This document shows, one piece after another, positions 5,806-54,200 of a stretch of DNA of 64,000 nt. Both the position numbers and the translations under genes were made by a program. Numbering within the stretch: the stretch's first letter is position 1; every line of letters starts with the position of its first letter. Source of the stretch: Fusobacterium ulcerans ATCC 49185 (GTDB taxonomy: Bacteria > Fusobacteriota > Fusobacteriia > Fusobacteriales > Fusobacteriaceae); NCBI RefSeq assembly GCF_900683735.1, contig NZ_LR215979.1, forward strand, positions 1,860,001 to 1,924,000. Reading direction: 5' to 3'. Under the pieces are notes generated by a model. The model searched no databases and was not told where the DNA came from. It saw nothing but the letters and a program-made list of their open reading frames with translations.

Positions 5806-6969
5806 TTATTTTTCTTTTAAAGTTTCATTTATATTTATTAAAAATTTCTCTATATTAGATTTGGGAGTTGCCAGATTCACTCTTATAAATCCCTTACCTG
5901 AATCTCCAAAATGTTCTCCCATGTAAACATTTACTCCTGCCTTTTCAATAAATAATTTTTTTAATTCTTCACCACTTACTTTTAAATCTCTATAGTCTAT
6001 CCAAGAAAGATAGGTTCCTTCAGAGTCTATTAATTTCAATTTAGGAATATGTTTTTTTAAATATTCTTTTAAATAAATCTTATTTGAATGGACATACTCT
6101 AACACTTCATCCAGCCAATAATCACATTCATTATATGCTGCTTCTGTTATTGCTGCAGCAAAAATATTTGGATTATGGATCACTGCTACATCTAATATTT
6201 CTTTTACTTCATTTCTTATTTTTTCATTAGGAATTATCAGATTAGAAGTAATAACTCCTGGAACATTAAATGTTTTTGTAATAGAAGTGCATATTATACT
6301 TATTTCCTGTGCTTCTCTTATACTAGCTACAGGAATATGTTTATTAGGTTTAAATACTAAATCACTGTGAATTTCATCAGCAAGTATTATTAAATTATGT
6401 TTTTTACAAAAGTTTACAATTTCCTGTAATTCATCTAATGTAAATACTCTTCCTGTAGGGTTGTGAGGATTACATAAAATGAATATTTTAGTGTTTTTAT
6501 CAATCTGCTTTTCCAAATTACTTAAATCTAATTTATATTTTCCATTTTTTAAAATTAAAGGATTTTCAATTAAATTTCTTTTATTTTTTACAACTACATC
6601 CCTTAATGTTGGATAAGCAGGTGTTTGTAGTATAATTCCATCCCCTTTCTTTGTCATATTTTGAATTATAAGACTGGTACCTATTCCAACTCTTGGTGAG
6701 TACATAATCCATTCTTCAGAAATATTCCAATTATGCCTTTTTTTATACCAATTAATTACAGACTGATAATATTTTTTAGATAAAATTGTATATCCAAATA
6801 TTCCATGTTCTACAATTTTATGCATGACATTTAGTATTTCTTTTGGAGACCTAAAATCCATATCTGCTACTGCCAGCTGCATTACATCCTTTCCACATAT
6901 CTCTCTGCATCCATCCCATTTTGCACAATTAGTTTCATATCTATTTATTATCTCATCAAATTCTTTCAT
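5806..6969 (-). CDS. MalY/PatB-family PLP-dependent C-S lyase or aminotransferase
   Basis: A 387-residue fold-type I PLP enzyme. It has the MalY/PatB hallmarks: ADMDFRSP near the N-terminus, CNPHNPTGRVF, LADEIHSDLVF, and the Schiff-base lysine in SITKTFNVPG. Members cleave cystathionine or cysteine (beta-lyase) and some act as regulators (MalY of E. coli). It starts 9 bp after the nhaC stop and is the last gene of the xylA-xylB-nhaC unit. Why a C-S lyase would be read with xylose genes is not clear. The family is firm; substrate and role in this operon are open. Confidence 0.85.
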   Translation of the reverse strand: MKEFDEIINRYETNCAKWDGCREICGKDVMQLAVADMDFRSPKEILNVMHKIVEHGIFGYTILSKKYYQSVINWYKKRHNWNISEEWIMYSPRVGIGTSLIIQNMTKKGDGIILQTPAYPTLRDVVVKNKRNLIENPLILKNGKYKLDLSNLEKQIDKNTKIFILCNPHNPTGRVFTLDELQEIVNFCKKHNLIILADEIHSDLVFKPNKHIPVASIREAQEISIICTSITKTFNVPGVITSNLIIPNEKIRNEVKEILDVAVIHNPNIFAAAITEAAYNECDYWLDEVLEYVHSNKIYLKEYLKKHIPKLKLIDSEGTYLSWIDYRDLKVSGEELKKLFIEKAGVNVYMGEHFGDSGKGFIRVNLATPKSNIEKFLININETLKEK

Positions 6970-6978
6970 ATTTTACTC

Positions 6979-34324: not shown

Positions 34325-34882
34325 TTATTTAAAAACAGTTGGTACACTTTCTAAAGCTACATTGTGATATACCCAAATACTTATGGATTCATCATCACTT
34401 AATTTTTTAAAAGAGTGCTTTGTATTTGCAGGTATATAAATTGTATCACCAGGATGCATCTCATAAATAACTCCTTTTAAATTCAACTCTAAAACTCCTT
34501 GTACCATATATCCAATTTCATCTGCTATATGAGATTCTGAAATATGGAGAACTTTGTCTGATACTATCATTGCAGTCCCTTTCATATGCCTATTTCCTTC
34601 AGTTATTGTTTCATAACGTACTCCTTCATTATCAAATATAATTCTTCTATCCTTTTTTTCAACTAAAAGCTTTTCAGAATTTAAGTTTAAAAGCAAATCC
34701 GTAAGGGTTATTCCAAGGCATTGACAAATTTTATTCAAGCTTTCAATTGTAGGACTATTAAGACCTCTTTCCAATAAGCTTAAATAACTTATTGATAGCC
34801 CAGATTTAAAAGCCAGTTCCTGCAATGTAGTTTTATGTTGTTTTCTTATTCTTTTTAAAAGAGCGCCTATTTTTTCATCCAT
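34325..34882 (-). CDS. XRE-family regulator with C-terminal cupin domain
   Basis: 185 residues. A lambda-repressor-type helix-turn-helix fills about 8-62 (TTLQELAFKSGLSISYLSLL), and a Cupin_2 domain about 105-180 (VLELNLKGVIYEMHPGDTIY, then IPANTKHSFKKLS). HTH-cupin proteins sense small metabolites and usually control an adjacent catabolic or transport operon. It is divergent from the DUF1904-TRAP-AcnX operon, with a repeated 20-bp palindromic site in both promoters, so it is the probable regulator of that cluster and of itself. The ligand is unknown. Confidence 0.88.
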   Translation of the reverse strand: MDEKIGALLKRIRKQHKTTLQELAFKSGLSISYLSLLERGLNSPTIESLNKICQCLGITLTDLLLNLNSEKLLVEKKDRRIIFDNEGVRYETITEGNRHMKGTAMIVSDKVLHISESHIADEIGYMVQGVLELNLKGVIYEMHPGDTIYIPANTKHSFKKLSDDESISIWVYHNVALESVPTVFK

Positions 34883-34982
34883 TTTTTACCCCTTTTTAAT
34901 ATTGTTATAATTATTCAAATATATTATATCACATTTTAATTTTTTTATATTCCAAAAATACTTTTAAAAATAAAAAGAAAAA

Positions 34983-35002
34983 TTTTATATATATAAAAAT
35001 TT
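34983..35002. promoter_or_regulatory. Repeated dyad, copy 1 (regulator side)
   Basis: A 20-bp sequence containing the 16-bp perfect palindrome TTTTATATATATAAAA, repeated exactly at 35101-35120. It covers the -10 box of the minus-strand promoter at 34990-35018. It is a candidate XRE-cupin operator. The low complexity of the sequence lowers confidence. Confidence 0.5.
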
Positions 35003-35018
35003 TTTAGCGTTTTGTCAA
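34990..35018 (-). promoter_or_regulatory. Promoter of the XRE-cupin regulator
   Basis: On the minus strand, TTGACA - 17 bp - TATATA, with the -10 box inside dyad copy 1. Confidence 0.45.
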
Positions 35019-35057
35019 TATTAAAATGTTCGTTTTATAAAAAAATAGTTAATTTAC

Positions 35058-35086
35058 TTGACTTTTTGTATTTTTAATAGTATTAA
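35058..35086 (+). promoter_or_regulatory. Promoter of the DUF1904-TRAP-AcnX operon
   Basis: TTGACT - 17 bp - TATTAA, with the start point near 35093 and dyad copy 2 just downstream. Confidence 0.55.
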
Positions 35087-35100
35087 TAAATTATAAAAGA

Positions 35101-35120
35101 TTTTATATATATAAAAATTT
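35101..35120. promoter_or_regulatory. Repeated dyad, copy 2 (operon side)
   Basis: Exact second copy of the 20-bp element, at about +8 to +27 of the operon promoter, a usual repressor position. Confidence 0.5.
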
Positions 35121-35149
35121 ATTTTATAATAATAAAAAAGGAGGTTGCT

Positions 35150-35470
35150 ATGCCACATCTTAAAATAAGTGGAATTTCCAAAGAAAAAATTATAGACTTT
35201 TCCAGCAACTTAACTAATATCATTTCCAATATCTCTAATACTTCTATTGATTATATTAAAGTTTTTTATAATCCTATAGAATATATTTCTGGTAAAGAAA
35301 AAAATATTATAATTGCAGAAATATACTGGATGCCTCGTCCTCAAGAAATATGTGATAAATTAGCAATGGAAATAACTAATTTTTTTAAAACAAAAGGATA
35401 TGATTTTATTCAAGTTAATTATAGTGAATTTCCAGGAAATCTTTTTTATGAAAATGGAACTCACTATTAA
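35150..35470 (+). CDS. DUF1904 protein, tautomerase-like fold
   Basis: A 106-residue protein with a strong AAAGGAGG site. It starts MPHLKISGISKEKIIDF and carries EIYWMPRPQEICDKLA and a C-terminal NLFYENGTHY, the pattern of the DUF1904 family. These proteins resemble MIF/4-oxalocrotonate tautomerases, with Pro2 as potential catalytic base once Met1 is removed. It is the first gene of the TRAP-AcnX operon, where a tautomerase could act on an enamine/imine or keto/enol intermediate. The family is likely; the activity is inferred. Confidence 0.75.
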   Translation: MPHLKISGISKEKIIDFSSNLTNIISNISNTSIDYIKVFYNPIEYISGKEKNIIIAEIYWMPRPQEICDKLAMEITNFFKTKGYDFIQVNYSEFPGNLFYENGTHY

Positions 35471-35510
35471 TGACTAAAGTGCTTTTATTAAAATATCAAG
35501 GAGGTAAAAA

Positions 35511-36524
35511 ATGAAATTCAAAAATGCAGTATCAATTTTTTTAACTGGCTTTTTTATTTTAGGCTCTCTTACTTATGCAAAAGATACAGGTAATTTTAAA
35601 CCAGTTGTTTTAAAATTCGCAAATCAACATCCAAGTGACTCAACAGCTTCAAATGCTGACAGAGAAATATGCGAAGAAATAAATAAAGCGACTGAAGGAA
35701 GAGTGAAAGTAGAACTTTATACAGACAGCTCTTTGGGGGATTATACTAGTATATTCGAAGAAACTATGATGGGAACAATAGATATGGCTCATATTACAGC
35801 TGTTGAAACCTATGACCCTAAAATGTCTGGAGCTATGCTTCCCTATTTAGGTTCTAATTATGAAGAATTGGAAAAGGCTTACGCCCCAGATAATTATCTA
35901 TTTAAAACTGTATCTGAAAGTGCTAAAAAATTAGGTTTACATAGTTTTGGTTTTTACTGTGAAGGATTTTCTGGTATAGGTGTAACTAAAGAAATAAAAG
36001 ATCCAGCTATCCCTGGAAAAGAAAAAGATGTTATTGTTCGTATTCCTGGCCTTGATAACTTTGCATTACCTGCTAAAGAATTAGGTTTTAGAACATCTAC
36101 TATTGCATATTCTGATACTTATACTTCTATGCAGACTGGTACAGTTAATGGTTGGGTAGGAGGACCTCCTAATTTAAACTACCTATATTTCCGTGATGTT
36201 ATAAAATATTATTATCACTATCAAATGACTCAAGAAGCTACTCAAATTTTTATGAATGAAAATAAATTTAATTCTCTTCTTCCAGAAGATCAAGCAGCAA
36301 TTACAAAAATTATTCAAAATAAATGTAAGGAAAGTCTTGTTCTTGCTAAAACAGATGAAGAAAAATATATGAAGCTTATGGAAGATGCTGGAATAAAAGT
36401 TATTAAATTCAGTGATGAAGAAAGAGCTAATTTTGCTAAAACTATTAGAGAAAAAGTATGGCCAAAACTTACAAAACATACATCTAAAAAATTTATGGAC
36501 AATCTTTTGAAAAGCATGGAGTAA
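35511..36524 (+). CDS. dctP: TRAP transporter substrate-binding protein
   Basis: A 337-residue periplasmic receptor with a signal peptide (ending LTYAKD, cleavage near residue 24). LKFANQHPSDSTASNADREI, VKVELYTDSSLGDYTSIFEE and YTSMQTGTVNGWVGGP are typical of DctP-type proteins, which bind organic acids, often through a conserved Arg in the central strand (VIVRIPG here). It is followed by 404 bp of non-coding sequence before dctQ, which may allow extra expression of the receptor. The ligand is unknown. Confidence 0.92.
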   Translation: MKFKNAVSIFLTGFFILGSLTYAKDTGNFKPVVLKFANQHPSDSTASNADREICEEINKATEGRVKVELYTDSSLGDYTSIFEETMMGTIDMAHITAVETYDPKMSGAMLPYLGSNYEELEKAYAPDNYLFKTVSESAKKLGLHSFGFYCEGFSGIGVTKEIKDPAIPGKEKDVIVRIPGLDNFALPAKELGFRTSTIAYSDTYTSMQTGTVNGWVGGPPNLNYLYFRDVIKYYYHYQMTQEATQIFMNENKFNSLLPEDQAAITKIIQNKCKESLVLAKTDEEKYMKLMEDAGIKVIKFSDEERANFAKTIREKVWPKLTKHTSKKFMDNLLKSME

Positions 36525-36928
36525 AAATAAATTTAATATTCTAAAATTATTAATAATCTACAATAGTTTTTAATTAAAAACTTATGCTGCTGGGTTTGTT
36601 CTAAAATAATAATATTCAATACAGAATTATTAAAATTAAGGCTAAAATTAATAGATTCAAGCCCAGTATACATAATTAAATCAAAAATATATTTTAAGAC
36701 TATAGTCTATAAAAGTTTTGCCAGATAAAAGTATAATAATTATTTTTTTAAACTTAACATTCATAAAATTTTTCTACTAAATATATCCTCATTCTACTTT
36801 CTACCTAATTCACAAAATAAAGTACATCAATTTGCCAATTAAAAAACTACTAATCTATACTGTTTAAATAAATTTATTATAAATTTAAAATAAAGATTTT
36901 TATATCTTCATTTTATAAAGGAGGAAAT
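36525..36928 (+). other. 404-bp intercistronic region with a long-range RNA structure
   Basis: No gene is visible between dctP and dctQ. Within it, TTATG and CTGGGTTTG (36582-36598) pair with CAAGCCCAG and CATAA (36658-36675) around a small internal loop, one pair being G-U. The enclosed loop contains a further TAATAAT/ATTATTA hairpin. No T-run follows, so a simple terminator is unlikely. It could be a processing or stability element that uncouples dctP from dctQM. Confidence 0.5.
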
Positions 36929-37420
36929 ATGCTTAAAAAATTAGATAATTTCCTAGAAAATATAGAAAATATAATACTTATCATTACAGGTATTGCAGTG
37001 TGTTTACTTATTTTTATTGGTGCTATGATGCGTTACATTTTTAAAATTGACTTTTATGGCTCTGAAGAAATAATTTTGTTTATATCATTTTGGTTATATT
37101 TTACTGGAAGTGCTGTTGCAGCAAAAAAAAATTCCCATATTGATGCTAATATGTTAAGTATTTTTATCAAAAATCAAAAGACTTTACAAATTTTCAGCCT
37201 AATTAAAAATCTAATAGCTCTATTTATAGCAGTTATTGTCACTTTTTGGTGCTATAAATATGTTTCATGGTCTGCTGATATGGGAGCAGCATCTAATGTT
37301 TTTAAATTACCTAATATAATAGGTCAAATTCCTATTTTTATTTCATTCTTTATATGGGATATATACCTGATAAGAGATGTAATAAATAACTTTAAAAATT
37401 TAAAAACTTTTTCTTCATAA
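36929..37420 (+). CDS. dctQ: TRAP transporter small permease
   Basis: A 163-residue inner-membrane protein with four hydrophobic segments. MRYIFKIDFYGSEEIILFISFW and GSAVAAKKNSHIDANML are the conserved DctQ features. It forms the permease with DctM, 23 bp downstream. The ATG has a GGAGG site. Confidence 0.9.
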   Translation: MLKKLDNFLENIENIILIITGIAVCLLIFIGAMMRYIFKIDFYGSEEIILFISFWLYFTGSAVAAKKNSHIDANMLSIFIKNQKTLQIFSLIKNLIALFIAVIVTFWCYKYVSWSADMGAASNVFKLPNIIGQIPIFISFFIWDIYLIRDVINNFKNLKTFSS

Positions 37421-37443
37421 GATTATAGTGAGGTGAAATATAT

Positions 37444-38745
37444 ATGATAATTGCTGTTGCTTTAATAATTTTATTAATTATGTTAATTATAGGAATGCCT
37501 ATCCCATTAGCATTTTTAGCCTCTGCTGGAAGTATTTGTTTTTTAGGTGACTATGATCCATCTTTTTTAATGGTTTATGGTTATAATAAAATAAATTCTA
37601 TTCTATTGCTTACAATCCCATTATTTGTTCTTGCAGGTTCGATCATGGATAATGGTGGAATTGGAGAAAAATTAATAGGAACTGTTGAAAAACGTGTAGG
37701 AAAAGTTAAAGGAAGCCTTGGAATAGTTGCTGTAGTATCTTGTGCTGTTTTTGGAGCTGTTTCTGGAAGTTCATCTGCAACTTTATCTTGTATAGGTTCT
37801 ATAATGACTCCAAGATTAAAAAGAAATGGATATCCTGAAGGATTAATAGGAGCTTTGTTAGCAAGTTCTGGAGTTCTTGGAATTTTAATTCCCCCATCAA
37901 TGTTAATGATTTTATATGCATGGTCAAGTGGACAGTCAGTTCTTGCATGTTTTTTAGCAACAGTTTTACCAGGAATTTTATTAATTATTCTTATAAGCTT
38001 GGTTAATTGCTGGTATGCTAAGAAAAATCCAAACATAAAAGTTTACGATAAAGTAGTTGAAAACATAAATACAAACAAGAATTTTAAAAAGAAAAATGAT
38101 AGTGCTGTTCCTGCTTTATTAATGCCAGTTATTATTTTAGGCTCTATTTATTGCGGAATATTAACAGCTACAGAAGCAGCAGCTTTATCTGTAATATACG
38201 CTGTTCCGGTTGGAGCTTTTTATTATAAAAAAATAGATAAAATAACATTTAAAACAGCTCTTATCCAAGCTGGAGAAACTGCTGGAGTCATTATGGCTAT
38301 GCTTTTTTCTGTTATGATTTTAAGCAGGCTATATGTAAGTGAAAATCTACCAAATATGATTTTACAATTTTTAACATCCATTTCTGAAAAAAAAGTAATC
38401 ATTCTCATCATGATTAATTTATTTATGATAATTTTAGGTATGATTATGGATGACTGCTCAGCAACTATTTTAGCAGCACCTATTTTACTTCCTGTTATTG
38501 TAGCTTTAGGAGTCAGCCCTATACATTTTGCAGCAATTCTTGGAGTTAATATAGGTATGGGAAATGTAACACCCCCTACAGCTCCATTATTATATTTAGC
38601 TGGAAGGATCTCCAAAGCAGAAGTTAAAGAAATGCTGGGACCAGATATAGCATTGATTTGTTTTGCATGGTTTCCTACTTTAATTTTGACTACTTATATC
38701 CCTGCTTTTGGGCTATTCCTGCCAAAACTATTTGGTTATCTATAA
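37444..38745 (+). CDS. dctM: TRAP transporter large permease
   Basis: A 433-residue inner-membrane protein with about 12 hydrophobic segments. IGMPIPLAFLASA, FGAVSGSSSATLSCIGSIM, LLASSGVLGILIPPSMLMIL and GNVTPPTAPLLYLAG are DctM/SiaT large-subunit hallmarks. It drives Na+-coupled uptake of the solute delivered by DctP. The aconitase-X genes follow directly, so the imported solute is probably their substrate or a precursor of it. Confidence 0.93.
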   Translation: MIIAVALIILLIMLIIGMPIPLAFLASAGSICFLGDYDPSFLMVYGYNKINSILLLTIPLFVLAGSIMDNGGIGEKLIGTVEKRVGKVKGSLGIVAVVSCAVFGAVSGSSSATLSCIGSIMTPRLKRNGYPEGLIGALLASSGVLGILIPPSMLMILYAWSSGQSVLACFLATVLPGILLIILISLVNCWYAKKNPNIKVYDKVVENINTNKNFKKKNDSAVPALLMPVIILGSIYCGILTATEAAALSVIYAVPVGAFYYKKIDKITFKTALIQAGETAGVIMAMLFSVMILSRLYVSENLPNMILQFLTSISEKKVIILIMINLFMIILGMIMDDCSATILAAPILLPVIVALGVSPIHFAAILGVNIGMGNVTPPTAPLLYLAGRISKAEVKEMLGPDIALICFAWFPTLILTTYIPAFGLFLPKLFGYL

Positions 38746-38769
38746 AATACAATTAAGGAGATGAAGAAA

Positions 38770-40053
38770 ATGCTTAAATTAACTGATTACGAAAAAAAAA
38801 TGCTGAATGGAGAAATGGGTGCTTTTAAACAAAAAGCTTTAGAAAAAATTATTGAATATGCAAAAGTATTAAATGCTGAAGAATTATGCGAAGTTACAAA
38901 GGCTACTGTATATTATGGGGCTCATCCTTATCTAGATGTTATAAAGTCAGATGATTATAATGAAGTCTTCTCAAAAATGATGTTATGTAGTGATGATAAA
39001 ATATATGAAATTGGTGATTTCTCTGATGAATGTTTTATCCAAACCTGCTGCAGTGGATGTGATTATTATTGTTATGAACCTATAAATATATCAAAAGAAG
39101 TTTTTGAAAAGAATAAAAAATATCTGCAAATCACAAGACCAAAAGGAGTCAATATTGTTGGTTCTTGTACTCCATATCTAAGCGGATGGATTCCAATAAG
39201 AGGAGAACATTTTGTCTCAACTGAATCAAGTAATATCCTAATGTGCAATTCTGTTTTTGGAGCATGTGGAAATGCAGATGGTTTAGAGGCTTCAACTTGG
39301 TCTGCCATATGTGGAAGAACTCCAAAATGGGGGAATCATATACTAGAAAATAGACATGCCACTCATATTTTTGAAATCCAATGTAAAAGTGATACTGAAT
39401 ATGATTGGGATATAATTGGAATTATCTTAGGAAAAATATTACCAGGAAATGCTCGTCCTGTTGTAACAGGAAATTTTAAACATCCTAATCTCAATAAATT
39501 AAAACGACTCTTTGCTTCACTTGCTACTACAAGTGGATGTGAAATATGCCATATTGTTGGATGTACAGCTGAAGCTCCAACTTTAGAAGCTGCCCTAAAT
39601 GGACATACTCCTCTTGGAACTTTTGCAATAACTCAAAAAATGTATGATGATGCTTTATCTACAATATGTGATGAAGGTAGTGAAGCTGTACAAATGGTTG
39701 TATTAGGATGTCCACATTATGCTTTAGATGAGATTAAAAAAGTGGCAGATTTATTAAAAAATAAAAAAGTCAATGAAAATGTTTCTTTACAGGTCTGGAC
39801 AGATTTAGCTATTCAAAAACTTGCTGATATTAATGGTTATACAGAAATTATTGAAAATGCAGGAGGGCATCTTTTAAACAGTTCTTGTCCTCTAGTTTGT
39901 GGACGTACTATTTTTGATAATGTAAAAACAGGATTTGTAACAGATGGTGCAAAACAAGCTCACTATTTACACAGTGATTTAAAAAATATAAAAATATTTT
40001 ATGGAACTACTGAAAAATGTATTGATGCTGCAATAAAAGGATGGTGGGATTAA
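38770..40053 (+). CDS. Aconitase X catalytic (large) subunit
   Basis: 427 residues. NSVFGACGNADGLE, ICGRTPKWGNHI, VVLGCPHYALDEI and LNSSCPLVCG match the AcnX catalytic domain (DUF521), with cysteines placed for an Fe-S cluster or metal. Characterised AcnX enzymes dehydrate cis-3-hydroxy-L-proline (bacteria) or mevalonate 5-phosphate (archaea). The start is taken as the ATG at 38770, because AAGGAG directly abuts the ATG at 38761. The swivelling small subunit follows after 1 bp. The dehydratase class is firm. The substrate is unknown, since the neighbours (TRAP, serine-dehydratase-like enzyme) do not match a described AcnX pathway. Confidence 0.88.
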   Translation: MLKLTDYEKKMLNGEMGAFKQKALEKIIEYAKVLNAEELCEVTKATVYYGAHPYLDVIKSDDYNEVFSKMMLCSDDKIYEIGDFSDECFIQTCCSGCDYYCYEPINISKEVFEKNKKYLQITRPKGVNIVGSCTPYLSGWIPIRGEHFVSTESSNILMCNSVFGACGNADGLEASTWSAICGRTPKWGNHILENRHATHIFEIQCKSDTEYDWDIIGIILGKILPGNARPVVTGNFKHPNLNKLKRLFASLATTSGCEICHIVGCTAEAPTLEAALNGHTPLGTFAITQKMYDDALSTICDEGSEAVQMVVLGCPHYALDEIKKVADLLKNKKVNENVSLQVWTDLAIQKLADINGYTEIIENAGGHLLNSSCPLVCGRTIFDNVKTGFVTDGAKQAHYLHSDLKNIKIFYGTTEKCIDAAIKGWWD

Positions 40054-40054
40054 T

Positions 40055-40480
40055 ATGAAAGAAATTATTCTAAAGGGAAGACCTGCATTTCCTGGAAAAG
40101 CTTCTGGAGAAGCAATAGTATGTCCTGACAGTATTCAAGGTTGGGCAGGAGTTGATGATAAAACTGGGATAATAATAGAAGATTCAAATATTGAAAAAGG
40201 AAAATGTATTGATAAAAAAATATTAATATTACCATATGGAAAAGGATCTACTGGATGGTCTGGGCATTTTCACTCTGCTGCAGTTTCTGGTTTTAAACCT
40301 TCAGGTTGGCTGTTTTCTAAAATAGATTCAAGATCAGGAGTAGCTTCAGCTGTTTTATCAATTCCTACTATTGCTGATTTTCCTGATGACATAGATTTAT
40401 TTTCTTTAATAAAAACTGGTGATTTTATAGAAATGGATGGAGATACTGGAGAAGTTAAAATCATAAAAAGAGATGAATAA
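40055..40480 (+). CDS. Aconitase X swivel (small) subunit
   Basis: A 141-residue partner domain (DUF126). GRPAFPGKASGEAIVCPDSI, LPYGKGSTGWSGHFHSAA and GDFIEMDGDTGEVKI are characteristic. In AcnX enzymes this domain closes the active site with an essential Ser in the PxxxGSTG region, present here as YGKGSTGWS. It starts 1 bp after the large subunit, so translation is probably coupled. Confidence 0.9.
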   Translation: MKEIILKGRPAFPGKASGEAIVCPDSIQGWAGVDDKTGIIIEDSNIEKGKCIDKKILILPYGKGSTGWSGHFHSAAVSGFKPSGWLFSKIDSRSGVASAVLSIPTIADFPDDIDLFSLIKTGDFIEMDGDTGEVKIIKRDE

Positions 40481-40508
40481 AACATCTATTTTTTAGAAGG
40501 GGGAACAC

Positions 40509-42062
40509 ATGAAAAAATATCACAGCATCTTTAATGATGTTTTAGGACCTATAATGACAGGACCTTCAAGTTCTCATACTGCTGGATGTGCAAGAATTGG
40601 TAAAATGATAAGAATTTTATATGGAAATGATATAGAAGAAGCTGAAATTATATTTGAAAAAAATGGTTCTTATCCCAGTACTTACAAAGGTCAAGGAACA
40701 GATTATGGTTTTGTTGGAGGACTTTTAGGATTTTCTCCTGATGATATAAGACTAAAGCACGCTTTAAAAATAGCTGAAGAAAGTAATCTTAAAATAACTT
40801 TTAAATCAGAAGATTTAGGAATGAACCATCCCAATGAAGCTGAAATTAGAATATATAGAAACAAAAAATTAGATATGAAAATTATTACCCGTTCTACTGG
40901 TGGGGGAATGTTTGAAATAATTAATATGGATGATTTTGACATATCAATAACTGGTGAAAATAAAAAAATTTATATTTCTACAAAAGAAAATTCATTAATT
41001 CAAGAAATTAAAAAAATTCTTTCTCCAGATCATTATTATTTACAGGAAAAAAACAGTACAATTCTTTTTGAAATATTAATAATTAATAGTGAAATTGAAA
41101 ATAAAATTAAATATTTAAAAAATGATAATAGAATTATTTTTTATAGAACAGCAGATGTTATTTTGCCTGTAGCACTAAACAAAGAAAACATACCACTATT
41201 TTTTAATGCCGCAGAAGCTATTGAATACAATAAAAGTGAAAATTTAAATCTGTGGGAGCTCGCAATCAGATATGAATGTAGTATAAGTAATATTTCAAAA
41301 AATGACATTGTAGAAAAAATGAAAAACATATTATTTTTTATGAAAAAATCTTTATTAATAGATATTAATGATAAAAATACTGAATTTCAAATACTTTCTA
41401 ATAATTCTGCTAAAATAGAAGATAAATTAAAAAATGAAAATATAATTGACATGGGGGTTTTAAATAAAATTATGCTTTCAGCAGTTAAAACTATGGAAAA
41501 TAATTGTAAACATAATATCATAGTTGCTGCTCCTACAGCTGGTTCTTGTGGTGTAATTCCTGCTACAATTGTTTATTGTGGAGAAAAAATAAATGCTGAA
41601 GAAGATAAAATTATAAAAGCACTGTTAACATCAGGTCTTATTGGTGTCTTTATTGCTAATCAATCTACTTTTAGCGCAGAAGTTGCTGGATGTCAGGCAG
41701 AAAATGGGGCAGCAAGCTGTATGGCAGCAGCTGGAATTATTGAATTATTAGATGGAAATATTGAAGAATGTTTTTCTGCAGCTTCATTGGCACTGCAAAA
41801 TCTGCTGGGATTAATTTGTGACCCTGTAGGAGGCTTAACTGAAGTTCCTTGTATAAGCAGAAATGTTTTAGCTTCTATAAATGCGGTTTCATCAGCTAAT
41901 ATGATAAAATGCGGTTATGATGCAGTTATTCCTTTAGACGAAGTCATTACTGCAATGTATGAAGTTGGAAAAATGCTTCCTAACGAATTAAAATGTACTT
42001 GCAAAGGTGGTTTATGTAATACAAAAACAGGAAAAGAAATATACAATAAAATTAAAAAATAA
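40509..42062 (+). CDS. Single-chain Fe-S L-serine dehydratase-like ammonia-lyase
   Basis: 517 residues joining the beta-type N-terminal part (FNDVLGPIMTGPSSSHTAG, GSYPSTYKGQGTDYGFVGG, MNHPNEAEIRIYR) and the alpha-type C-terminal part (AAPTAGSCGVIPATIVY, EVAGCQAENGAASCMAAAG, ICDPVGGLTEVPC). The cysteines for an oxygen-labile [4Fe-4S] cluster are kept (CDPVGG, then CTCKGGLC near the end). Such enzymes deaminate L-serine to pyruvate. Here it ends a TRAP-AcnX operon, so it may act on a serine-like hydroxy-amino acid from that pathway. The middle (about 190-310) is poorly conserved and longer than usual. Fold firm, substrate open. Confidence 0.83.
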   Translation: MKKYHSIFNDVLGPIMTGPSSSHTAGCARIGKMIRILYGNDIEEAEIIFEKNGSYPSTYKGQGTDYGFVGGLLGFSPDDIRLKHALKIAEESNLKITFKSEDLGMNHPNEAEIRIYRNKKLDMKIITRSTGGGMFEIINMDDFDISITGENKKIYISTKENSLIQEIKKILSPDHYYLQEKNSTILFEILIINSEIENKIKYLKNDNRIIFYRTADVILPVALNKENIPLFFNAAEAIEYNKSENLNLWELAIRYECSISNISKNDIVEKMKNILFFMKKSLLIDINDKNTEFQILSNNSAKIEDKLKNENIIDMGVLNKIMLSAVKTMENNCKHNIIVAAPTAGSCGVIPATIVYCGEKINAEEDKIIKALLTSGLIGVFIANQSTFSAEVAGCQAENGAASCMAAAGIIELLDGNIEECFSAASLALQNLLGLICDPVGGLTEVPCISRNVLASINAVSSANMIKCGYDAVIPLDEVITAMYEVGKMLPNELKCTCKGGLCNTKTGKEIYNKIKK

Positions 42063-42354: not shown

Positions 42355-43806
42355 TTATTCCATTTTATTTCTGATTGCATCTAGTTCATTTAAATTTTCT
42401 ACATCAATAACTTCAACATCTTGATCTTGAAGTTTCTTTCTGAATACTGCTATTCCTAAGTATGCCATAATAATAGAAACAATTGGATTTATTAAACTTA
42501 AAAAGGCATAAGGAAAATAAGCAAAAGTAGAAACACCTAAAGTAGCAGATTGATATGCTCCACAACCATTCCATGGAAACATAGGAGACCAAAGCGAACC
42601 TCCATCCTCCAATGTTCTAGATAGATAATATCTTTCCAGTCCCATGTCATCATAAACTTTATAATACATTCTTCCTGGAATAATATTTGCTAGATATTGA
42701 TCTGTAAGAACAAAATCACACAAAATTCCAGTCACAATAGTTGTAGCTACAAGGCTTCCAACTGAATGAATATATTTTATTACTTTTTCCAAAATTACCT
42801 CAGTAAATTTTGCCTTTTCCAGAATACCTCCAAAACATAGAGCAAAAATTATAAGAGAAATTGTCCATAACATTCCATTGACTCCACCCCTAGTAAGCAG
42901 CTTATTTACAATCTCTACATTAGTTTCCCCTACATATCCATTTTGCAAAACATTCAAAACATCCACAAGACTTGCTTTCTGAAAAATCATGGCAAGTATA
43001 CTTCCAACTGTTGTTGCAAGTAGCAGAGAAGGAATAGCAGGAACCTTCTTTACAGCTGTTATCAATACTACTATTGGAGGTATTAATAGCCAAGGGCTAA
43101 TAACAAAAGTAGTAGAAAGTGCATCTTTTATTAAGCTTATATTCTCTAAATTTATTGATGAAGTATCATATCTTAATCCTATAATCAGATACAGCAAAAG
43201 TGCTATTAAAAAACTTGGAACAGTTGTATACATCATTGATCTTACATGTAAATATAAGTCAGTTTCTGCAGTAGCAGCAGCAACATTGGTGCTGTCTGAT
43301 AGAGGAGAAATCTTATCTCCAAAATATGCTCCTGAAATAACCATTCCTGCTGTTAGTGCAGGATTAATTCCAAGACCTGTTCCAATTCCCATAAGAGCTA
43401 CCCCTATTGTCCCTCCAGAAGTCCAAGCACTTCCAGTTGCAACAGATACAATTGCACATAAAATACATCCTGTAGGCAGAAAAAACTTTGGAGAAATCAA
43501 TTCCAATCCATAAAAAATCATTGCTGGAACAGAACCTGCTAAAACCCATGAACCAATCAACATTCCCACAATCATAACAATAATCAAAGCTTCTACAGCT
43601 CTATAAACACTTTCAATCATTCCACTTCTTATTTCAAGCCAGCTGCATCCTACTTTCAATGCCATGGCTCCTGCAAGAATAGTTGAAATTACAATAGGAA
43701 TATGTGGATCTACTTTTAATACAAGCATAGAATAAACAATGATTACTGCCATTCCTACAATAGGAACCAAAGCCTCCCAAATTTTAGGTTTTCTTGCTAT
43801 CCTCAT
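42355..43806 (-). CDS. NhaC-family antiporter under a sigma-54 promoter
   Basis: A 483-residue inner-membrane protein, a paralogue of the NhaC protein at 6979-8427. It shares ATGSAWTSGGTIGVALMGIG, GAYFGDKISPLSDSTNVAAA and a C-terminal SRTLEDGGSLWSPMFPW region. Members exchange Na+ and H+, or organic acids, across the cytoplasmic membrane. The -24/-12 promoter and two upstream dyads put it under enhancer control, most likely by the NtrC-type regulator encoded next door. That is unusual for a housekeeping Na+ pump and points to solute exchange on demand. The substrate is unknown. Confidence 0.83.
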   Translation of the reverse strand: MRIARKPKIWEALVPIVGMAVIIVYSMLVLKVDPHIPIVISTILAGAMALKVGCSWLEIRSGMIESVYRAVEALIIVMIVGMLIGSWVLAGSVPAMIFYGLELISPKFFLPTGCILCAIVSVATGSAWTSGGTIGVALMGIGTGLGINPALTAGMVISGAYFGDKISPLSDSTNVAAATAETDLYLHVRSMMYTTVPSFLIALLLYLIIGLRYDTSSINLENISLIKDALSTTFVISPWLLIPPIVVLITAVKKVPAIPSLLLATTVGSILAMIFQKASLVDVLNVLQNGYVGETNVEIVNKLLTRGGVNGMLWTISLIIFALCFGGILEKAKFTEVILEKVIKYIHSVGSLVATTIVTGILCDFVLTDQYLANIIPGRMYYKVYDDMGLERYYLSRTLEDGGSLWSPMFPWNGCGAYQSATLGVSTFAYFPYAFLSLINPIVSIIMAYLGIAVFRKKLQDQDVEVIDVENLNELDAIRNKME

Positions 43807-43846
43807 ATCTTTCCCCCTTTATTTTCATGATATTTGATATAATATA

Positions 43847-43865
43847 TAGCAATTACTATGCCAAT
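43847..43865 (-). promoter_or_regulatory. Sigma-54 (-24/-12) promoter of the nhaC2 gene
   Basis: On the minus strand TTGGCATAGTAATTGCT has GG and GC separated by exactly 10 bp, with the TTGGCA and TTGCT contexts of RpoN promoters. The start point would be near 43837, about 30 bp before the ATG, and a GGGGG ribosome site fits between. Confidence 0.75.
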
Positions 43866-43921
43866 AAGAAAAGATATGTTTTACTTTAAACAGCAGAGAA
43901 AATACAATTAAATTTAATTAA

Positions 43922-43966
43922 AAACAGGAAATATATTTCCCAACTTGAGAAATATATTTCCTGTTT
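43922..43966 (-). terminator. Perfect 18-bp hairpin: terminator and/or tandem enhancer sites
   Basis: AAACAGGAAATATATTTC at 43922 pairs perfectly with its complement ending at 43966 around a 9-nt loop. On the minus strand TTTTTAATT follows, so it can end the response-regulator transcript. Each arm is itself a palindrome (GGAAATATATTTCC at 43927-43940 and GAAATATATTTC at 43949-43960). Their centres are 21 bp apart, two helical turns, and lie about 97 and 118 bp upstream of the sigma-54 start. This is a typical place for NtrC-family activator sites. Confidence 0.7.
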
Positions 43967-44086
43967 CTTTATTCTTTAAAAAATAATATTTTTAGATCTA
44001 TGAAACACTTTTGCAATATAAATTTTCTCTTTTGAATTGAATTTGAAATTTTTTAAATTATATTTTATGTATCAAAGAAAGAAGTA

Positions 44087-45460
44087 TTACTCTTTAAGAG
44101 ATTGAATCCATTCTCTAAGATTATATTCTAAAATTTTATTATTTAACTGACGTTTGCTGATATCCAAGGCAGCTGCAGCCTTAGATAAATTTCCTTTGCA
44201 CTCTCTGATTTTAGAACGTATAAATTCCATTTCAAATTGGTTTCTTGCATCTCGCAAATTTTCATAAGAATGTAGACTTCCATCTTCTTCTGTGTGCTGC
44301 AGATATCTTTTTGCATTCTTAAAATATATAACAGAACCTTCTGCTAAAACTATCAAACGTTCAATTATATTTTTTAATTCTCTGATATTCCCTGGATAAT
44401 GATAGTTTTTTAAAAAATTCATAGTTTCTTCATCTATATATTCTATTTTTTTCTTCAACTCCATTTCAAATTTTTTAACAAAAAAATGAATAAAACTTTC
44501 AATATCTTCTGGTCTCTCCCGAAGAGGAGGAACATGGATAACAATTCCATTAATTCTGTATAAAAAATCTTCTCGAAGAATTCCACTCTTAACAGCTTCA
44601 TAAATATTTTTGTTAGTTGCTGAAATCAATCTGATATTGACATCCATTTTTTTACTTCCACCAACACGCTCTATTTTTTTATCTTCCAGTACTCTTAAGA
44701 GCTTTACCTGTGTATTCATTGAAACATCTGCAATTTCATCAAGAAACAATGTTCCATGGCTGGCCTCTTCAAATTTTCCTATTTTTTGTTTAATTGCTCC
44801 TGTAAAAGAACCTTTTTCATGTCCAAACAACTCTGATTCAAGAACTCCTTCTGAATATTCCTGACAATTGACTGGAACAAATGGAAAAGTATTTCTTTCA
44901 CTTTTTTCATGTATATATCTAGCTATTACTTCTTTTCCAACTCCAGATTCCCCAAGAATTAAAACAGATATATTACTTCTAGCAACTTTTTTACATATAT
45001 CTAATATATTTTGCATATCAGTATTATTTGATTCAAGCAAAGATATTTCCTTATTTTGATTTTTTAGTAAACTATTTTCTAATTTGAGCTGCTTTAACTG
45101 TAAAAACCTCTCAATATCCAGAAGTAAAGTACCTGGATCATTGCTTTTAATAAAATAATTATATGCTCCACTCTGAATTGCCTGAACTGCTGTTTCAACT
45201 GTTCCATATGCAGTAACAATAATAACTCCTACCTCAGTATCATAATCTTTTATCCAGTGAAGAAGTTCTATCCCTGTTTCATTTTTCATAATCAAATCTG
45301 TTACTACCATGTCAATTTTATGGTCCTTGATGATTTCTCTTGCTTCTGCAATACAGGAAGCCATATAAACATAATACCCCTTCTCCTCTAATATTAGAGA
45401 AAACATCTCTCTATAATCTGCTTCATCATCTACAATTAAAATTTTATAATCTGCAAGCAT
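44087..45460 (-). CDS. NtrC-family sigma-54-dependent response regulator
   Basis: 457 residues in three domains. The receiver is at about 5-120, with D11, D12 and phospho-acceptor D55 (VVTDLIM), then VTAYGT and the Lys in FIKSND. The AAA+ domain is at about 145-370: Walker A GESGVGKEVIARYIH, GSFTGA loop in GHEKGSFTGAIKQK, Walker B GTLFLDEIADV. A Fis-type helix-turn-helix closes it (LSKAAAALDISKRQLNNKI). The intact GSFTGA loop implies contact with sigma-54. It lies 13 bp after the sensor kinase, and the only sigma-54 promoter I found in the window is that of the neighbouring NhaC gene. Confidence 0.93.
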   Translation of the reverse strand: MLADYKILIVDDEADYREMFSLILEEKGYYVYMASCIAEAREIIKDHKIDMVVTDLIMKNETGIELLHWIKDYDTEVGVIIVTAYGTVETAVQAIQSGAYNYFIKSNDPGTLLLDIERFLQLKQLKLENSLLKNQNKEISLLESNNTDMQNILDICKKVARSNISVLILGESGVGKEVIARYIHEKSERNTFPFVPVNCQEYSEGVLESELFGHEKGSFTGAIKQKIGKFEEASHGTLFLDEIADVSMNTQVKLLRVLEDKKIERVGGSKKMDVNIRLISATNKNIYEAVKSGILREDFLYRINGIVIHVPPLRERPEDIESFIHFFVKKFEMELKKKIEYIDEETMNFLKNYHYPGNIRELKNIIERLIVLAEGSVIYFKNAKRYLQHTEEDGSLHSYENLRDARNQFEMEFIRSKIRECKGNLSKAAAALDISKRQLNNKILEYNLREWIQSLKE

Positions 45461-45473
45461 CTAATTCTCCTTT

Positions 45474-47477
45474 TTAAAAATGAATAGAAATAAAAAACTT
45501 TGTGCCCATCCCATATTGACTTTCAACAGAGATATCTCCATTATATTTTTTGACTTCATTATATACAAGATATAGCCCAAGCCCTGTACCATATCCTTCT
45601 CCTTTTGTTGTATAAAAAGGATCAAAAATATAAGGAAGTCCCTCCTCTGATATTCCCACTCCATTATCTTCAATTAAAAAGTGAAGAGAATCCTCTGCAG
45701 AAGAAATAGAGATTTGTATCAAATTATCATCTTTGGTAATTGAAAAAGCATCAATTGCATTTTCAATAAGGTTAATCAAAATAATATTAACAGCTTCTGC
45801 ATTTAAAGTTACCATAGGGTTTCCCTCTAAGTTGACATGGTACTTGATTTTTTTAGCTTTTAATTTTGTTTCCATTAAAGTCATTATATTACTTACTATT
45901 GTTTCAATGTTTTCTTGAGTACATTTATCAGATGCTGTTCTTGAAAATCTAAGTAAATGTTCAATCAGATTATTAACTCTTTGAATTGAATTTTCCATCA
46001 TACTTATAGCTTTTTCCTGTGATTTATTAGATACTTTCATTTTAATAAGATAAATTCCATTCCTTATTGTTCCCAGAGGGTTTCTGATTTCATGTGCCAA
46101 ACCAGCTGATATCTGACCTATGGTTATCATTTTATTTTCTTGATGAAGCTTTCTCTCTATAATAAGTTTTTCTGTTATATCTTCTATACTTAAAATTCTA
46201 AGTTTTTCTTCTCTTGAAATATAAGGAGAAAGTTTAACTTCATAACATCTATTTTTTAATGTATTTCTAAATTTAAGACTAAGATCTTCCTTCCATTGAG
46301 GATATTTTGATATTTCCAATAATTCAGATAAAAAAGAGAATTCAAAAAGACTTTTTTCCACTACATCCTTCCTACTCTGAGAAAGCAAAGTCAAAGAGGC
46401 ACGATTACATTCTATCACTACACAAGCTTCATTGATAATAAACAGAGCTATGTCCAGATTATTCAATATCATACTGATATTTTTCTTATTTTCTTCAATT
46501 TCTTTTGTTTTCTCCAACACTCTTCTTTTCAGAAAATAATTCCATATATAAAGGCCTATTAAACAAATGAGCAAAATAATTGCAATATTGATAAATGATT
46601 CCAGTTCCCTCTTTTCTCCTCTTATAGATTCAGAAATTCCAAACCATTTCTGTTGAACCTTTGGCACTATATGATTTTTTTTCATCTGTAAAATACCCTT
46701 ATTAAGTATGGACAGCAATAAATCAGAATCTTTATTTACTGCCAATACTACATCCTTTTCATATAAAAGAATCACATTATATTTCTGAGTTTCATAAACA
46801 TTATACTCTTTCCAATAGGTAGAAATAACAACTTCATCTCCAATTGCAGCATCAACAATCCCTTGCTGTAAAAGTTCCAAAACTGTTTTTGTATCATTTA
46901 CTAAAACAAATTGAACCATTGGTTTTCTTTCTTCTTTTAAAAAATTATTGATATATTCTGCTGCTAAATCTCCTTTTGGAATTGCTACCTTTTTCCCTGA
47001 CAATTCCATAATATCTAATATATTACTCCCATCTTTTGGAGAAATAACAACAGTTTTTAATCGATATATTGGGATAGAAAAATTAAATTCCTTTGCTCTG
47101 CTTTCACTGGGAAACATATCTCCCACATCAATCTTATGCTCTCTCAAAGCTTCCATTAAATTATAAAAAGTATACATATTTATAGTAATAGGTGTTGCTG
47201 TTTCAATTGACAAAAAGTTTACATAATCAACAATCAATCCAGCATACTCCCCTGCAGTATTATCATAATAGGAAATTGGAGGGGCAGTAATATCACTTCC
47301 CAACCTAATTGGGCTATGAAATTTCAAATAATCCCTTTCTTTTTCTGTAATAGGTGATGAATACTTCAAATATGTTGGAAGAGTTGTTCCGTATTTCATA
47401 ACTACAATTTGATTCCATAAAATAACACATACAACTACCATAATTACAAGAATGAAATGTCTTTGAATATTTTTCAT
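45474..47477 (-). CDS. Sensor histidine kinase with periplasmic solute-binding (SBP family 3-like) domain
   Basis: 667 residues. TM helix at about 8-26; extracytoplasmic domain at about 45-280 resembling amino-acid-binding proteins (IRLGSDITAPPISYYDN, SRAKEFNFSIPIY, GKKVAIPKGDLAAEYI, QQGIVDAAIGDEV); TM helix at about 290-312; PAS-like domain at about 325-440. The kinase follows: GLAHEIRNPLGTIRNG with the phospho-His, N box LINLIENAIDAF, then EDNGVGI and GTGLGLYLV. It probably senses an amino acid or organic acid and phosphorylates the adjacent NtrC-type regulator. The ligand is unknown. Confidence 0.9.
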   Translation of the reverse strand: MKNIQRHFILVIMVVVCVILWNQIVVMKYGTTLPTYLKYSSPITEKERDYLKFHSPIRLGSDITAPPISYYDNTAGEYAGLIVDYVNFLSIETATPITINMYTFYNLMEALREHKIDVGDMFPSESRAKEFNFSIPIYRLKTVVISPKDGSNILDIMELSGKKVAIPKGDLAAEYINNFLKEERKPMVQFVLVNDTKTVLELLQQGIVDAAIGDEVVISTYWKEYNVYETQKYNVILLYEKDVVLAVNKDSDLLLSILNKGILQMKKNHIVPKVQQKWFGISESIRGEKRELESFINIAIILLICLIGLYIWNYFLKRRVLEKTKEIEENKKNISMILNNLDIALFIINEACVVIECNRASLTLLSQSRKDVVEKSLFEFSFLSELLEISKYPQWKEDLSLKFRNTLKNRCYEVKLSPYISREEKLRILSIEDITEKLIIERKLHQENKMITIGQISAGLAHEIRNPLGTIRNGIYLIKMKVSNKSQEKAISMMENSIQRVNNLIEHLLRFSRTASDKCTQENIETIVSNIMTLMETKLKAKKIKYHVNLEGNPMVTLNAEAVNIILINLIENAIDAFSITKDDNLIQISISSAEDSLHFLIEDNGVGISEEGLPYIFDPFYTTKGEGYGTGLGLYLVYNEVKKYNGDISVESQYGMGTKFFISIHF

Positions 47478-50317: not shown

Positions 50318-51290
50318 CTAGAATTTGTAATTGAATCTTACTCCATATTTTACTGATGAATCTTCTCTGTTTCCTTCATCTGCTGCCTCTACTTCAAATG
50401 TTACTCCCATATAGTTGGCTTTCTCCACTGTTAGTCCTACTTTTCCTATCAGTTTTCCTTCTCTTTCATCTGGAGTAATCAAGCTGTAGTATCCTTCTCC
50501 TCCATTTTTTAGTCTTGCTTTGTTTCCATCATAGTTATCTCCAAGTTCATATGCATACTTTACATCTGCTGTTACTTTTACTGATACATCATTTCCTGCA
50601 TAGATTCTTTGGGATGCTTTCACTCCTGCTCCCAGTTGTGCGCTTAAGTAGTCATTATCTTTAATCTGTACTTCAAGTCCGCCATTGCTTCCTGCGCTTT
50701 CTGTAAAACCATCTACTTTTCCATACTCTAAATCTAAATCTGCATATATATCCAATTCCCTTGATAAATCTGTATAGATAACTTTTGTTATTCTGTTATC
50801 AAGTGCTACAGAGTAAGTATTGTACTCTCCCTTATTCTCAAATGTTTCATGAAGGTTAAGCTTTCTCTCAGCTATATGTCTGTTATATCCTAGTTCTATT
50901 CTTGACAGCCATGATACTTTATGTTCTTCACTTAGATTTTTAACTCTATGTACTCCTGCTCTCAATGAATACACATCCTCTTTTGAATCATTTTCAAATT
51001 CAAATTTCGATCCTGTAAATCCTAGTGTATATCCGTATTTGCTTCCATACTCTGTTCCTTCTTTTTCTTTCATGTAAAGAAGACCCATTATCTTGTAATC
51101 ATAATCTTCTATTCCTAAAGTTGGATCTTTGTAGTCTCCATCAGTATAGATTACACTATACTTACTGCTGTCTTTAGTTAGATTGTATGATGATTCAAGC
51201 TCATAGAAAGAGTTATCAAATGCTCTGTTGATATCCTGCATTCTTCCCTGAATAGTTGAATAGATATCTCCTCTTGCTTCTGCAAGTTTT
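50318..51290 (-). repeat. Barrel-coding segment duplicated at 61681-62651
   Basis: The last 970 or so bases of the giant autotransporter gene match 61681-62651 with only about a dozen substitutions and two 1-base gaps. Upstream of this the two genes diverge quickly. Confidence 0.85.
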
Positions 51291-54200
51291 CTAGAAGCTT
51301 CCTCTCCAAATTGGTCTCCACCAAATTCATTAAGATATGCATTTAAATTTTTTAATATTTCTGCATCCCTACCTATTCCATTACTGTTGGCAAGAATATT
51401 ATCCAATCCTTTATCTAGTGCATCAAACTGCTCTCCTATTGTGATATCAGCATATGGTCTTTTTACAATAATGAGATCTCCACCATCTGTCATTTTTGCT
51501 ACAAATAGAGGTGATGTTACTGGTGTAAGTTTTGTTCCAGTTATTACTCCTGTTGCTGTATTTACAAAATCTTTTATTTCATATGTGATTCCATTTCCTG
51601 TTGATGCAAAGTTTGGAAGAATGTTTACTTCTCCACTTACACTATGAGCATTAAACAAAGGTACTCCTGTTGTTACATCTACATACGCACCATTTATTAT
51701 CAGATTTCCGTCTGTTGTAAGTGTTCCTCCTGCAGAAACATAATTTCCATTGATTTTAATACTTCCATCTGAAGTAATTTCTACAGACCCCATTTGTGCA
51801 TTAGCTAATCCTGCTAACTGTGTTCCTGTTCCACCATTTACTACAATATGTCCTGCATTTACTGTATTTCCAATTCCTTCTATTCCTACTCCATTATTTA
51901 CTGTTATTGTTCCACCATTAAAAAATGTTGCTCCATTTCCTACAAGCATTCCAACACCTGCATTTACAGTTATATCCCCATAATTTTCTATTCTAGCACC
52001 ATTATAGGCTGCCATCCCTACTGTTATCGCTCCACAGTCTGCAAGTGTTCCTCCAAGATTAATATTGGCTCCTGCTGCATTGACAGCTACTGCTCCATCT
52101 CTTACAAGGATTCCTACTCCTCCATTATCTATATTTATTGTTCCAGTATTTGTAAACTTAGTTTCAATTCCTGTTCCATATACTCCTACTGAATGATCAT
52201 GATTTACTGTTATTGTTCCTGAACTTGTTGCCACAGTTCCTTCTCCAATATATATACCTACTGAATTTTCATGTTTTGTTGCATCATCATGGTTTCCATT
52301 TACATTTGTTTCTCCTACAGTTATATTTCCTGTATTTGTTACTATATTTTTTCCATTTGAGTAGATTCCTACTGCTGCCATTCCCAAATCCATATTAACA
52401 TTGTTATTAATTGTAGCAGAATTAGAAGTCACAGTTGATGAAATTATATTTCCACCTGCATCTTTAGTAATTATAACTTGCTGCACATAAATTCCATATC
52501 CACTGTTTCCTACAGTCCAGTCATTTCCTGCTGTAGTTGTTATAGTTCCTGTTCCATTCAGTTTATATATTCCTACTGACCCTGTATCTCCTTCCCCAGT
52601 TCCTTTGTCTGCAATAATCATATTTCCATTATGTGTTACATTACCATTTCCTTCACTTACAATACCTATACTTGTATTTGTACCAACTGCCATATCTCCT
52701 GTTACTAATGCATTCATTCCTTCTTTAGCATATACTCCTATAGAATTGTTATTTCCAAGAGTTATTCCTGTTGACATTGTTAAAGCAATATCTCCACTTC
52801 CTGAACCATAGATACCTACTCCATTATCTCCTACATTCATAGTTGTTCCACTTTGGCTAATATTTCCAGTCATATTTTTTCCATAGATTCCTATGCTGCT
52901 GTTTCCTACTGAAAGATTCCCTGTAGTTCCTGTATATGTTCCTCTATCTAAAAATACTCCAATTGATGAGTATTTCATTGGATCATCTGCATTTAATGAA
53001 CTTGGTGCATCTACTGATATATTTCCTGTAACTTTTATTGTACTATTTTCTCCATATATACCAATATTGTTGTCTCCTCCAGCTACAGATATTCCACCTA
53101 TAGTAAGATTAGAACTTCCTTTCGCCATTATTCCTACTTGATTAGCTGTTCCAGCTCCTCCAAGAGAAATTGTACTAGATATATTTCCTGTTGAATTATT
53201 TAATACTGCACCTATTGTATAGTTTCCTATTTGTGTAATTGTTGGCATTATTCCTATTGATGCTACACTATCATAATAAACCCCTATAGAGTATTTAGCT
53301 GGATCAAAAGCTGTTTCAGCAATTCCATTTTGAACTGTAATTGATGTTGTTATAAATGATGGAGCTGTGTTTTGTACATATACTCCTATTCCACCACCTT
53401 TAGCTATTATAGTTGAAGTTCCATTCGCAGTTACACTTCCTCCTTCTGCTACTATTCCTATTTGATTATCAGCTGTGATATCTCCTGTAAAATTCAATAC
53501 AGTTCCTTTGGAATACATATATATTCCATTTGTACCTACTGTTATATTTCCAGTATCAGTAACTGTAACTGTTCCAGTTCCTTCAGCATACACTCCTATT
53601 CCTTTATCCCCAGCTGTAATTGCTGTTGTTCCTGCTAAAATTATATTAGAATCTTTTGCTACTACTCCTATTGCACTCTTACCTGCACCTGAATCTCCTA
53701 CTGTAATACTTCCATCTATTGTAGAAGAAGTTGTTCCTGTTGCCATTACTCCTACACTTTCATTTCCTAAAGCAATAGTTCCTGCATTTATGTTTGAAGT
53801 GACTCCATCAAGAACTAATCCTGTATTTCCTGCAGTAGTTGAAGTTATATTATTCACTGAAAGATCATGTATGCTCCCTTTCAGATATACTCCTATTCCT
53901 TCTGTTCCTGTTATAGTCATCTCATTATTTTGTATTGATGTAGATACTGCATTATAGTTTGAATATATTCCTATTCCCTTATCTCCTACATTAATATTTT
54001 TTGTACTCACTATATCAGCTACATCTGTATATATTCCTATAGAAGGCGTAAAAGGATCTATACTTGATTTTCCACTTACATTAATAATCCCATCATTTAT
54101 TATTGTAACTGCTGCTAATGGATTACTTGTTCCTTTCACTGCTGCAAGCCCTATTCCTCCACTATGAACTGTTAGTGTCCCTCCATTATTTTTTATACTT

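Follow-up and report, generated by a model that had tools for sequence, protein, structure and literature searches.

Enzymes of the AcnX family catalyse dehydration α,β to a carboxylate, and the catabolism of quaternary amines in acetogens relies on proteins of the MttB superfamily (MtgB, MtpB, MtcB and MtyB). Two AcnX activities are known, cis-3-hydroxyproline dehydratase and mevalonate-5-phosphate dehydratase, and two structures have been solved, with roles assigned to individual residues (PMC8184944). In AtAcnX, the amine of cis-3-hydroxyproline is held by Asp203 and Thr72, while a Trp stacks on the hydroxyproline ring; the same dehydration is performed by two-subunit enzymes of Type IIa (PMC8184944). 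The bacterial Type-II subclasses IIc–IIf, described in 2021, are without the landmark residues of both known activities and are uncharacterised (PMC8184944). A further system to be considered here is the Fe-S L-serine ammonia-lyase, for which His61 has been proposed as the base (PMC12647591).

The window analysed, a stretch of 64,000 nucleotides from the Fusobacterium ulcerans genome (complete, single contig, 3.84 Mb, 29% GC), carries the single AcnX of that genome within a cluster of eight intact genes, which fill positions 34325–42062 with all eight reading frames open. In a Pfam profile search all eight scored above the curated cut-offs, confirming the gene identities given in a sequence-only reading of this DNA. 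Seven genes are co-directional and the regulator is transcribed away from them, with intergenic gaps of mostly 1–41 bp and one of 404 bp between the genes for DctP and DctQ. The features are:

34325..34882, minus strand: HTH (Cro/C1) and cupin regulator (Pfam HTH_3 and Cupin_2), divergent from the operon
34982..35001, no strand: candidate operator copy 1, 20-nt near-palindrome ATTTTATATATATAAAAATT, exact copy
35100..35119, no strand: candidate operator copy 2, identical 20-nt ATTTTATATATATAAAAATT, exact copy
35150..35470, plus strand: DUF1904 tautomerase-fold protein, as predicted (PF08921, 68 bits)
35511..36524, plus strand: TRAP solute-binding protein DctP (PF03480)
36929..37420, plus strand: TRAP small permease DctQ (PF04290)
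37444..38745, plus strand: TRAP large permease DctM (PF06808; TIGR00786 above cut-off)
38761..40053, plus strand: AcnX large subunit, apparently of an uncharacterised Type-II subclass (PF04412, 318.6 bits against a cut-off of 31.5)
40055..40480, plus strand: AcnX small (swivel) subunit (PF01989, 66.4 bits against a cut-off of 27)
40509..42062, plus strand: single-chain beta+alpha serine dehydratase-like Fe-S lyase (PF03313 and PF03315; 517 residues)

All eight genes are found in the same order in a sister species of the same genus (genome G028, locus L042) and in a Bacillota genome of the order of a Tissierellales MAG (locus L092), in both cases with the divergent regulator; between the window and L092, protein identities in gene order are 40, 43, 66, 56, 75, 57, 68 and 49%. 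Since order and regulator recur in this way in the sister species and in the Bacillota, the cluster is a real functional unit beyond a chance neighbourhood, and the earlier proposal of an operon with its own conserved regulator holds. DUF1904, AcnX and the lyase are together in G028 and L092; DUF1904 and a relative of the lyase also occur elsewhere without AcnX. With one genome taken per species, AcnX of this kind is rare: of 98 genomes from the phylum of the window, 2 have it, and of 391 sampled from the class to which the Tissierellales MAG belongs, 3 have it, with one fragment in addition; a scan of the collection for AcnX returned one locus only. The genomes carrying L006, a locus discussed below, and L092 are absent from those 98 and therefore belong to another phylum. 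Between the sister species, the DNA of the cluster is 93–99% identical (promoter 93, DctQ 99), compared with 88–92% for nearby flanking genes, a difference that hints at recent exchange or strong constraint.

When the large subunit is aligned to the solved AcnX enzymes, its cluster cysteines C136, C317 and C376 match those of TkAcnX (110, 283 and 342; Type IIb), and the carboxylate and hydroxyl ligands are kept as Glu155, Ser156, Lys398 and Tyr402; the small subunit retains the general-base Ser (in GKGST) and the pocket Trp. At the positions of Asp203 and Thr72 of AtAcnX, the window has Tyr and Gly, the Asp203 column being uncertain by one residue, with Tyr at both candidate sites. The mevalonate-5-phosphate landmarks, Leu27 and Val64 of the small and Ala47, Ser50 and Asn79 of the large subunit, are likewise absent: W30 and Gly occupy the former, and Tyr52/His55 or Tyr51/Ala54, together with Cys for Asn, the latter, where the TkAcnX stretch was placed by the numbering of the paper and not by alignment. 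Because the substrate-binding residues of both activities are missing while the catalytic residues are intact, the window AcnX reads as neither of the characterised kinds, as had been suspected earlier and as the comparison with PMC8184944 bears out; it fits the description of IIc–IIf, the subclass letter being left off. With AtAcnX-type enzymes it has in common the fold, the catalytic Ser, Glu, Lys and Tyr, the pocket Trp and presumably Fe-S dehydration α,β to a carboxylate, whereas it is divided into two subunits and keeps other genomic partners. With the archaeal Type IIb mevalonate-5-phosphate dehydratase it shares the two subunits, the three cluster cysteines and the carboxylate and hydroxyl ligands, but it has no phosphate-binding residues and no isoprenoid genes nearby, and its host is bacterial.

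These residues also bear on the simplest explanation, namely a plain cis-3-hydroxy-L-proline pathway in which AcnX makes Δ1-pyrroline-2-carboxylate and the other genes act as helpers. This is the best-known bacterial AcnX activity, the pocket Trp is kept, and a two-subunit Type IIa enzyme does carry out the reaction (PMC8184944). The pathway is nevertheless very unlikely here: the amine-binding Asp203 and Thr72 are absent, the set of cluster cysteines is that of Type IIb and not of Type I, and the NCBIfam cis-3-hydroxyproline dehydratase model gives 160.4 bits against a cut-off of 700, a score that is weak evidence alone, as that model represents the fused form of Type I. Moreover, the cluster has no Δ1-pyrroline-2-carboxylate reductase, and the Fe-S lyase would have no role.

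For DUF1904 we know of no established activity. Pro directly follows Met in all 15 aligned members, and an AlphaFold2 model (pLDDT 91.7) compared with Foldseek matched 4m1a, a solved DUF1904 structure, at E 8.6e-10 and MIF at E about 1e-8 (Z about 14, rmsd about 2 Å), in addition to other tautomerases. The predicted fold is thus that of the tautomerase/MIF superfamily, with its Pro-1, which backs the tautomerase idea put forward for this protein at the outset. DUF1904 is also encoded away from AcnX, and as its neighbours in Clostridia are mostly unrelated to catabolism, its use alone as a pathway marker was rejected.

The lyase, in turn, resembles the Fe-S L-serine ammonia-lyases (TIGR00718/719/720) in its alpha and beta domains, in the GPSSSHT motif and in three cluster cysteines, C395, C437 and C448, equivalent to 343, 385 and 396 of LpLSD. 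It differs from them in being a single chain of Type-1 parts and in falling below the NCBIfam cut-offs, at 238.1 against 243.2, 147.5 against 161.2 and 197.3 against 345.1 bits, the first two being near misses. The proposed base His61 (in KGHGTD) is replaced by Gln62 in the window and in L042, L092 and L128; close to its C terminus, the window protein has K-C-T-C followed by GGLC in place of [RK]-E-T, that is, C-T for E-T and two further cysteines; the canonical Type 1 and Type 2 enzymes of the set have His and Glu at these sites wherever they can be aligned. The C-T form is common to a group of single-chain relatives, nearly all of which also have the Gln (in the lyase tree, the rows of L107 and L110, out-of-frame read-throughs, and of the shortened L105 were disregarded). 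Elsewhere, the window genome encodes two canonical L-serine dehydratases and a cysteine desulfidase-like protein. The two replacements and the two canonical dehydratases make it probable that the lyase has a substrate or mechanism other than that of a typical serine ammonia-lyase; it is a homologue of the serine dehydratases but not a standard one. The genome of L128, which has no AcnX, encodes a closely related lyase that stands alone, and the lyase step therefore need not depend on AcnX.

Other single-chain lyases, some of the C-T group among them, are found in varied surroundings. One adjoins a D-cysteate sulfo-lyase scoring above its NCBIfam cut-off (L132, 4667–7296), and another a glycyl radical enzyme with its activase (L131, 164–5695). 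In L136 (292–7693) and L137 the lyase shares its operon with a TRAP transporter and with a dehydrogenase read as opine-type, L136 also having ornithine cyclodeaminase-family genes. In L130 (5057–10360) it accompanies a DctA/GltP-type carrier and members of the proline-racemase and DapA families, which may make up another imino acid pathway.

In a maximum likelihood tree of 28 large subunits, the window AcnX belongs to a clade of 16 members (support 100/100), in which the three from TRAP operons form a nested group (100/99). Genes for MttB-family methyltransferases lie beside or near 11 of the 13 other members (L006, L032/L088/L089, L033/L090/L091, L094, L095 and both AcnX of L096), L093 and L034 being the two without such a link; the partial L097, outside the tree, is a further MttB-adjoining case. 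Frequent companions in the clade are RidA, a BCCT transporter, a corrinoid protein, DUF1904 and a four-subunit 2-oxoacid:ferredoxin oxidoreductase, and the closest AcnX outside the TRAP operon (L006 and L032/L088/L089) have DUF1904, RidA, BCCT, MttB and all four oxidoreductase subunits around them. The MttB genes do not stand beside AcnX by chance: G098 has 2 of them in 4.2 Mb, one lying 2.4 kb from AcnX, and in G547 and G543 one of the 4 present in each adjoins AcnX, so that from gene counts a random locus in these three genomes would fall within 5 kb of MttB in roughly 0.5–2% of cases. Where a genome holds about 40 MttB genes, as the acetogen-like ones do, chance proximity is about 9%, and such cases count for little as evidence. 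The two published accounts of acetogen MttB-superfamily catabolism that were searched make no mention of an aconitase.

The AcnX of the window and, in one case (L006), its regulator have relatives in MttB-bearing clusters, but the TRAP form departs from the described catabolism in that TRAP replaces BCCT and that a search of the three TRAP-form genomes (G000, G028 and G613, the completeness of the last not being stated) returned 0 matches to MttB; MttB demethylation is therefore not part of the TRAP form. These observations weigh on a second explanation, by which a betaine-like or N-methylated hydroxy acid (hydroxyproline betaine or a carnitine-like compound) enters the cell and is dehydrated with its methyl groups still on, the methylated nitrogen being held by the aromatic residue that stands for Asp203 (Tyr or Phe throughout the clade). 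That substitution and the MttB and BCCT links of the rest of the clade give the idea a small but appreciable chance. It is still unlikely, given the missing MttB, a transporter of the TRAP and not the BCCT type, and the fact that a quaternary nitrogen cannot form an imine, which would leave DUF1904 without a job.

A second AcnX locus of the acetogen-like genomes (L033, 2049–11846; L090; L091) contains BCCT, MttB, a corrinoid protein, a dehydrogenase read as opine-type, a PanB-like protein and a 262-residue PRK07475-family protein. In L096, a histidine ammonia-lyase-family enzyme (5491–6993) is encoded near BCCT, MttB, MocA-/xanthine-dehydrogenase-like genes and the two AcnX pairs, a neighbourhood that we take to resemble the ergothionase setting. 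AcnX matches on plasmids (at most 36% identity) were set aside: those whose surroundings were read are of other subclasses and have FAD oxidoreductases or acyl-CoA genes nearby.

The HTH-cupin regulators beside AcnX in the window, L092, L006 and L093 are 39–47% identical to one another, compared with 24–30% to the HTH-cupin protein of L038 (26% for the window regulator), which lies near a different AcnX subclass. The regulator common to the TRAP locus and the MttB cluster L006 (46–47% identical) suggests that their inducers may be related. Between the regulator and DUF1904, the two exact copies of the 20-nt near-palindrome lie 118 nt apart, and the window holds 4 matches at up to 2 mismatches against 0.10 expected, which makes the pair a candidate operator; in L092 and L006, where it was looked for, the repeat is not conserved. 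Consensus promoter matches were disregarded, at 53 against 53.3 expected from shuffles, and an Rfam search of the window gave no match. The 404-bp gap (36525–36928, 17.8% GC) has equal length and 96% identity in L042 and measures only about 20 bp in L092. Downstream of the cluster, on the opposite strand (42355–47477), the window encodes an NhaC/ArcD-type antiporter, followed by a sigma-54 response regulator and a sensor kinase with a solute-binding-like domain; these genes do not adjoin the cluster in L042. Further on (50318–60463) there is an ORF of 3381 residues, probably a large surface protein.

With DctP, DctQ and DctM all present, the TRAP transporter is complete. DctP is closest, but weakly, to isethionate- and sialate-type binders and to other DctP proteins; this similarity is too low for ligand prediction, and its structure model (pLDDT 60) is too poor for that purpose. 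A third explanation takes up these matches, the substrate being a hydroxylated acid that lacks an amino group, for instance a sugar acid or a sulfonate-like compound, and the lyase acting on an amino acid formed from it or co-imported. Other fused lyases do adjoin a D-cysteate sulfo-lyase and a glycyl radical enzyme, and AcnX Type IIb acts on an amine-free hydroxy acid. Such a substrate is distinctly unlikely, however, as the tautomerase, RidA and ammonia-lyase partners all point to enamine/imine chemistry and the DctP matches predict little.

From the observed gene content, conservation, residue patterns, clade and neighbours, we infer a substrate class and a series of reactions. The cluster may be an inducible catabolic operon for a β-hydroxylated α-amino or cyclic imino acid, a reading to which we give somewhat less than an even chance; any named compound has a far lower probability, a hydroxyproline-like ring being a first guess. 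The HTH-cupin protein would sense the substrate or an intermediate, and the TRAP transporter would import the substrate. The AcnX pair would then remove water across C2–C3 by means of its Ser base and [4Fe-4S] cluster to give an enamine, whose conversion to the imine would be accelerated by Pro-1 of DUF1904, hydrolysis yielding a 2-oxo acid; finally, the divergent Fe-S lyase might carry out a second β-elimination, with loss of ammonia, on the product or a side product. An enamine or imine fits because RidA and a tautomerase are the partners, and a 2-oxo acid because the relatives carry 2-oxoacid:ferredoxin oxidoreductase. In the relatives without the lyase, AcnX and DUF1904 (which accompanies it in L006, L032, L088 and L089) or RidA would act after a corrinoid N-demethylase and before the oxidoreductase, so that these relatives probably start from a similar compound in its N-methylated (betaine) form. 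The place of that oxidoreductase and demethylase is taken by the Fe-S lyase in the TRAP form.

The hydroxylated amino or imino acid of the sequence-only reading is supported as an inference, with the retained pocket Trp among the points in its favour. As an aromatic residue and Gly stand in for Asp and Thr, the substrate may lack a free amine or be something other than an amino acid, and the loss of the amine-binding Asp, together with the weak resemblance of DctP to isethionate and sialate binders, is the main warning on the substrate class. The same RidA and tautomerase-type partners could also serve to detoxify or salvage some reactive analogue of an amino acid instead of a carbon and energy route, and a lyase of the same subgroup does stand alone in L128. 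This is hardly to be expected, since a dedicated importer and the ferredoxin-reducing oxidoreductases of the relatives are typical of catabolism.

Returning to the catabolic operon, a broader proposal can be made tentatively, and with rather more doubt than belief: the clade may represent a third AcnX activity, one that dehydrates hydroxylated amino or imino acids, N-methylated in many cases, and that would link corrinoid demethylation of betaines to breakdown of the carbon skeleton, the TRAP operon being the version for an already demethylated compound, with a new Fe-S lyase.

All parts of the cluster are members of known superfamilies; in the literature searched, no function is described for their combination, for the AcnX subclass or for the lyase variant, and a full-text search returned no paper joining AcnX with MttB, nor one joining AcnX with a TRAP transporter and a serine dehydratase-like lyase. 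An operon with its own importer, regulator and rare partners offers a testable handle on one uncharacterised Type-II AcnX subclass, and the demethylase-type neighbours of its relatives narrow the search for the substrate. As the MttB link suggests, anaerobes, gut acetogens probably among them, may draw on more than the methyl groups of betaine-like compounds in the diet.
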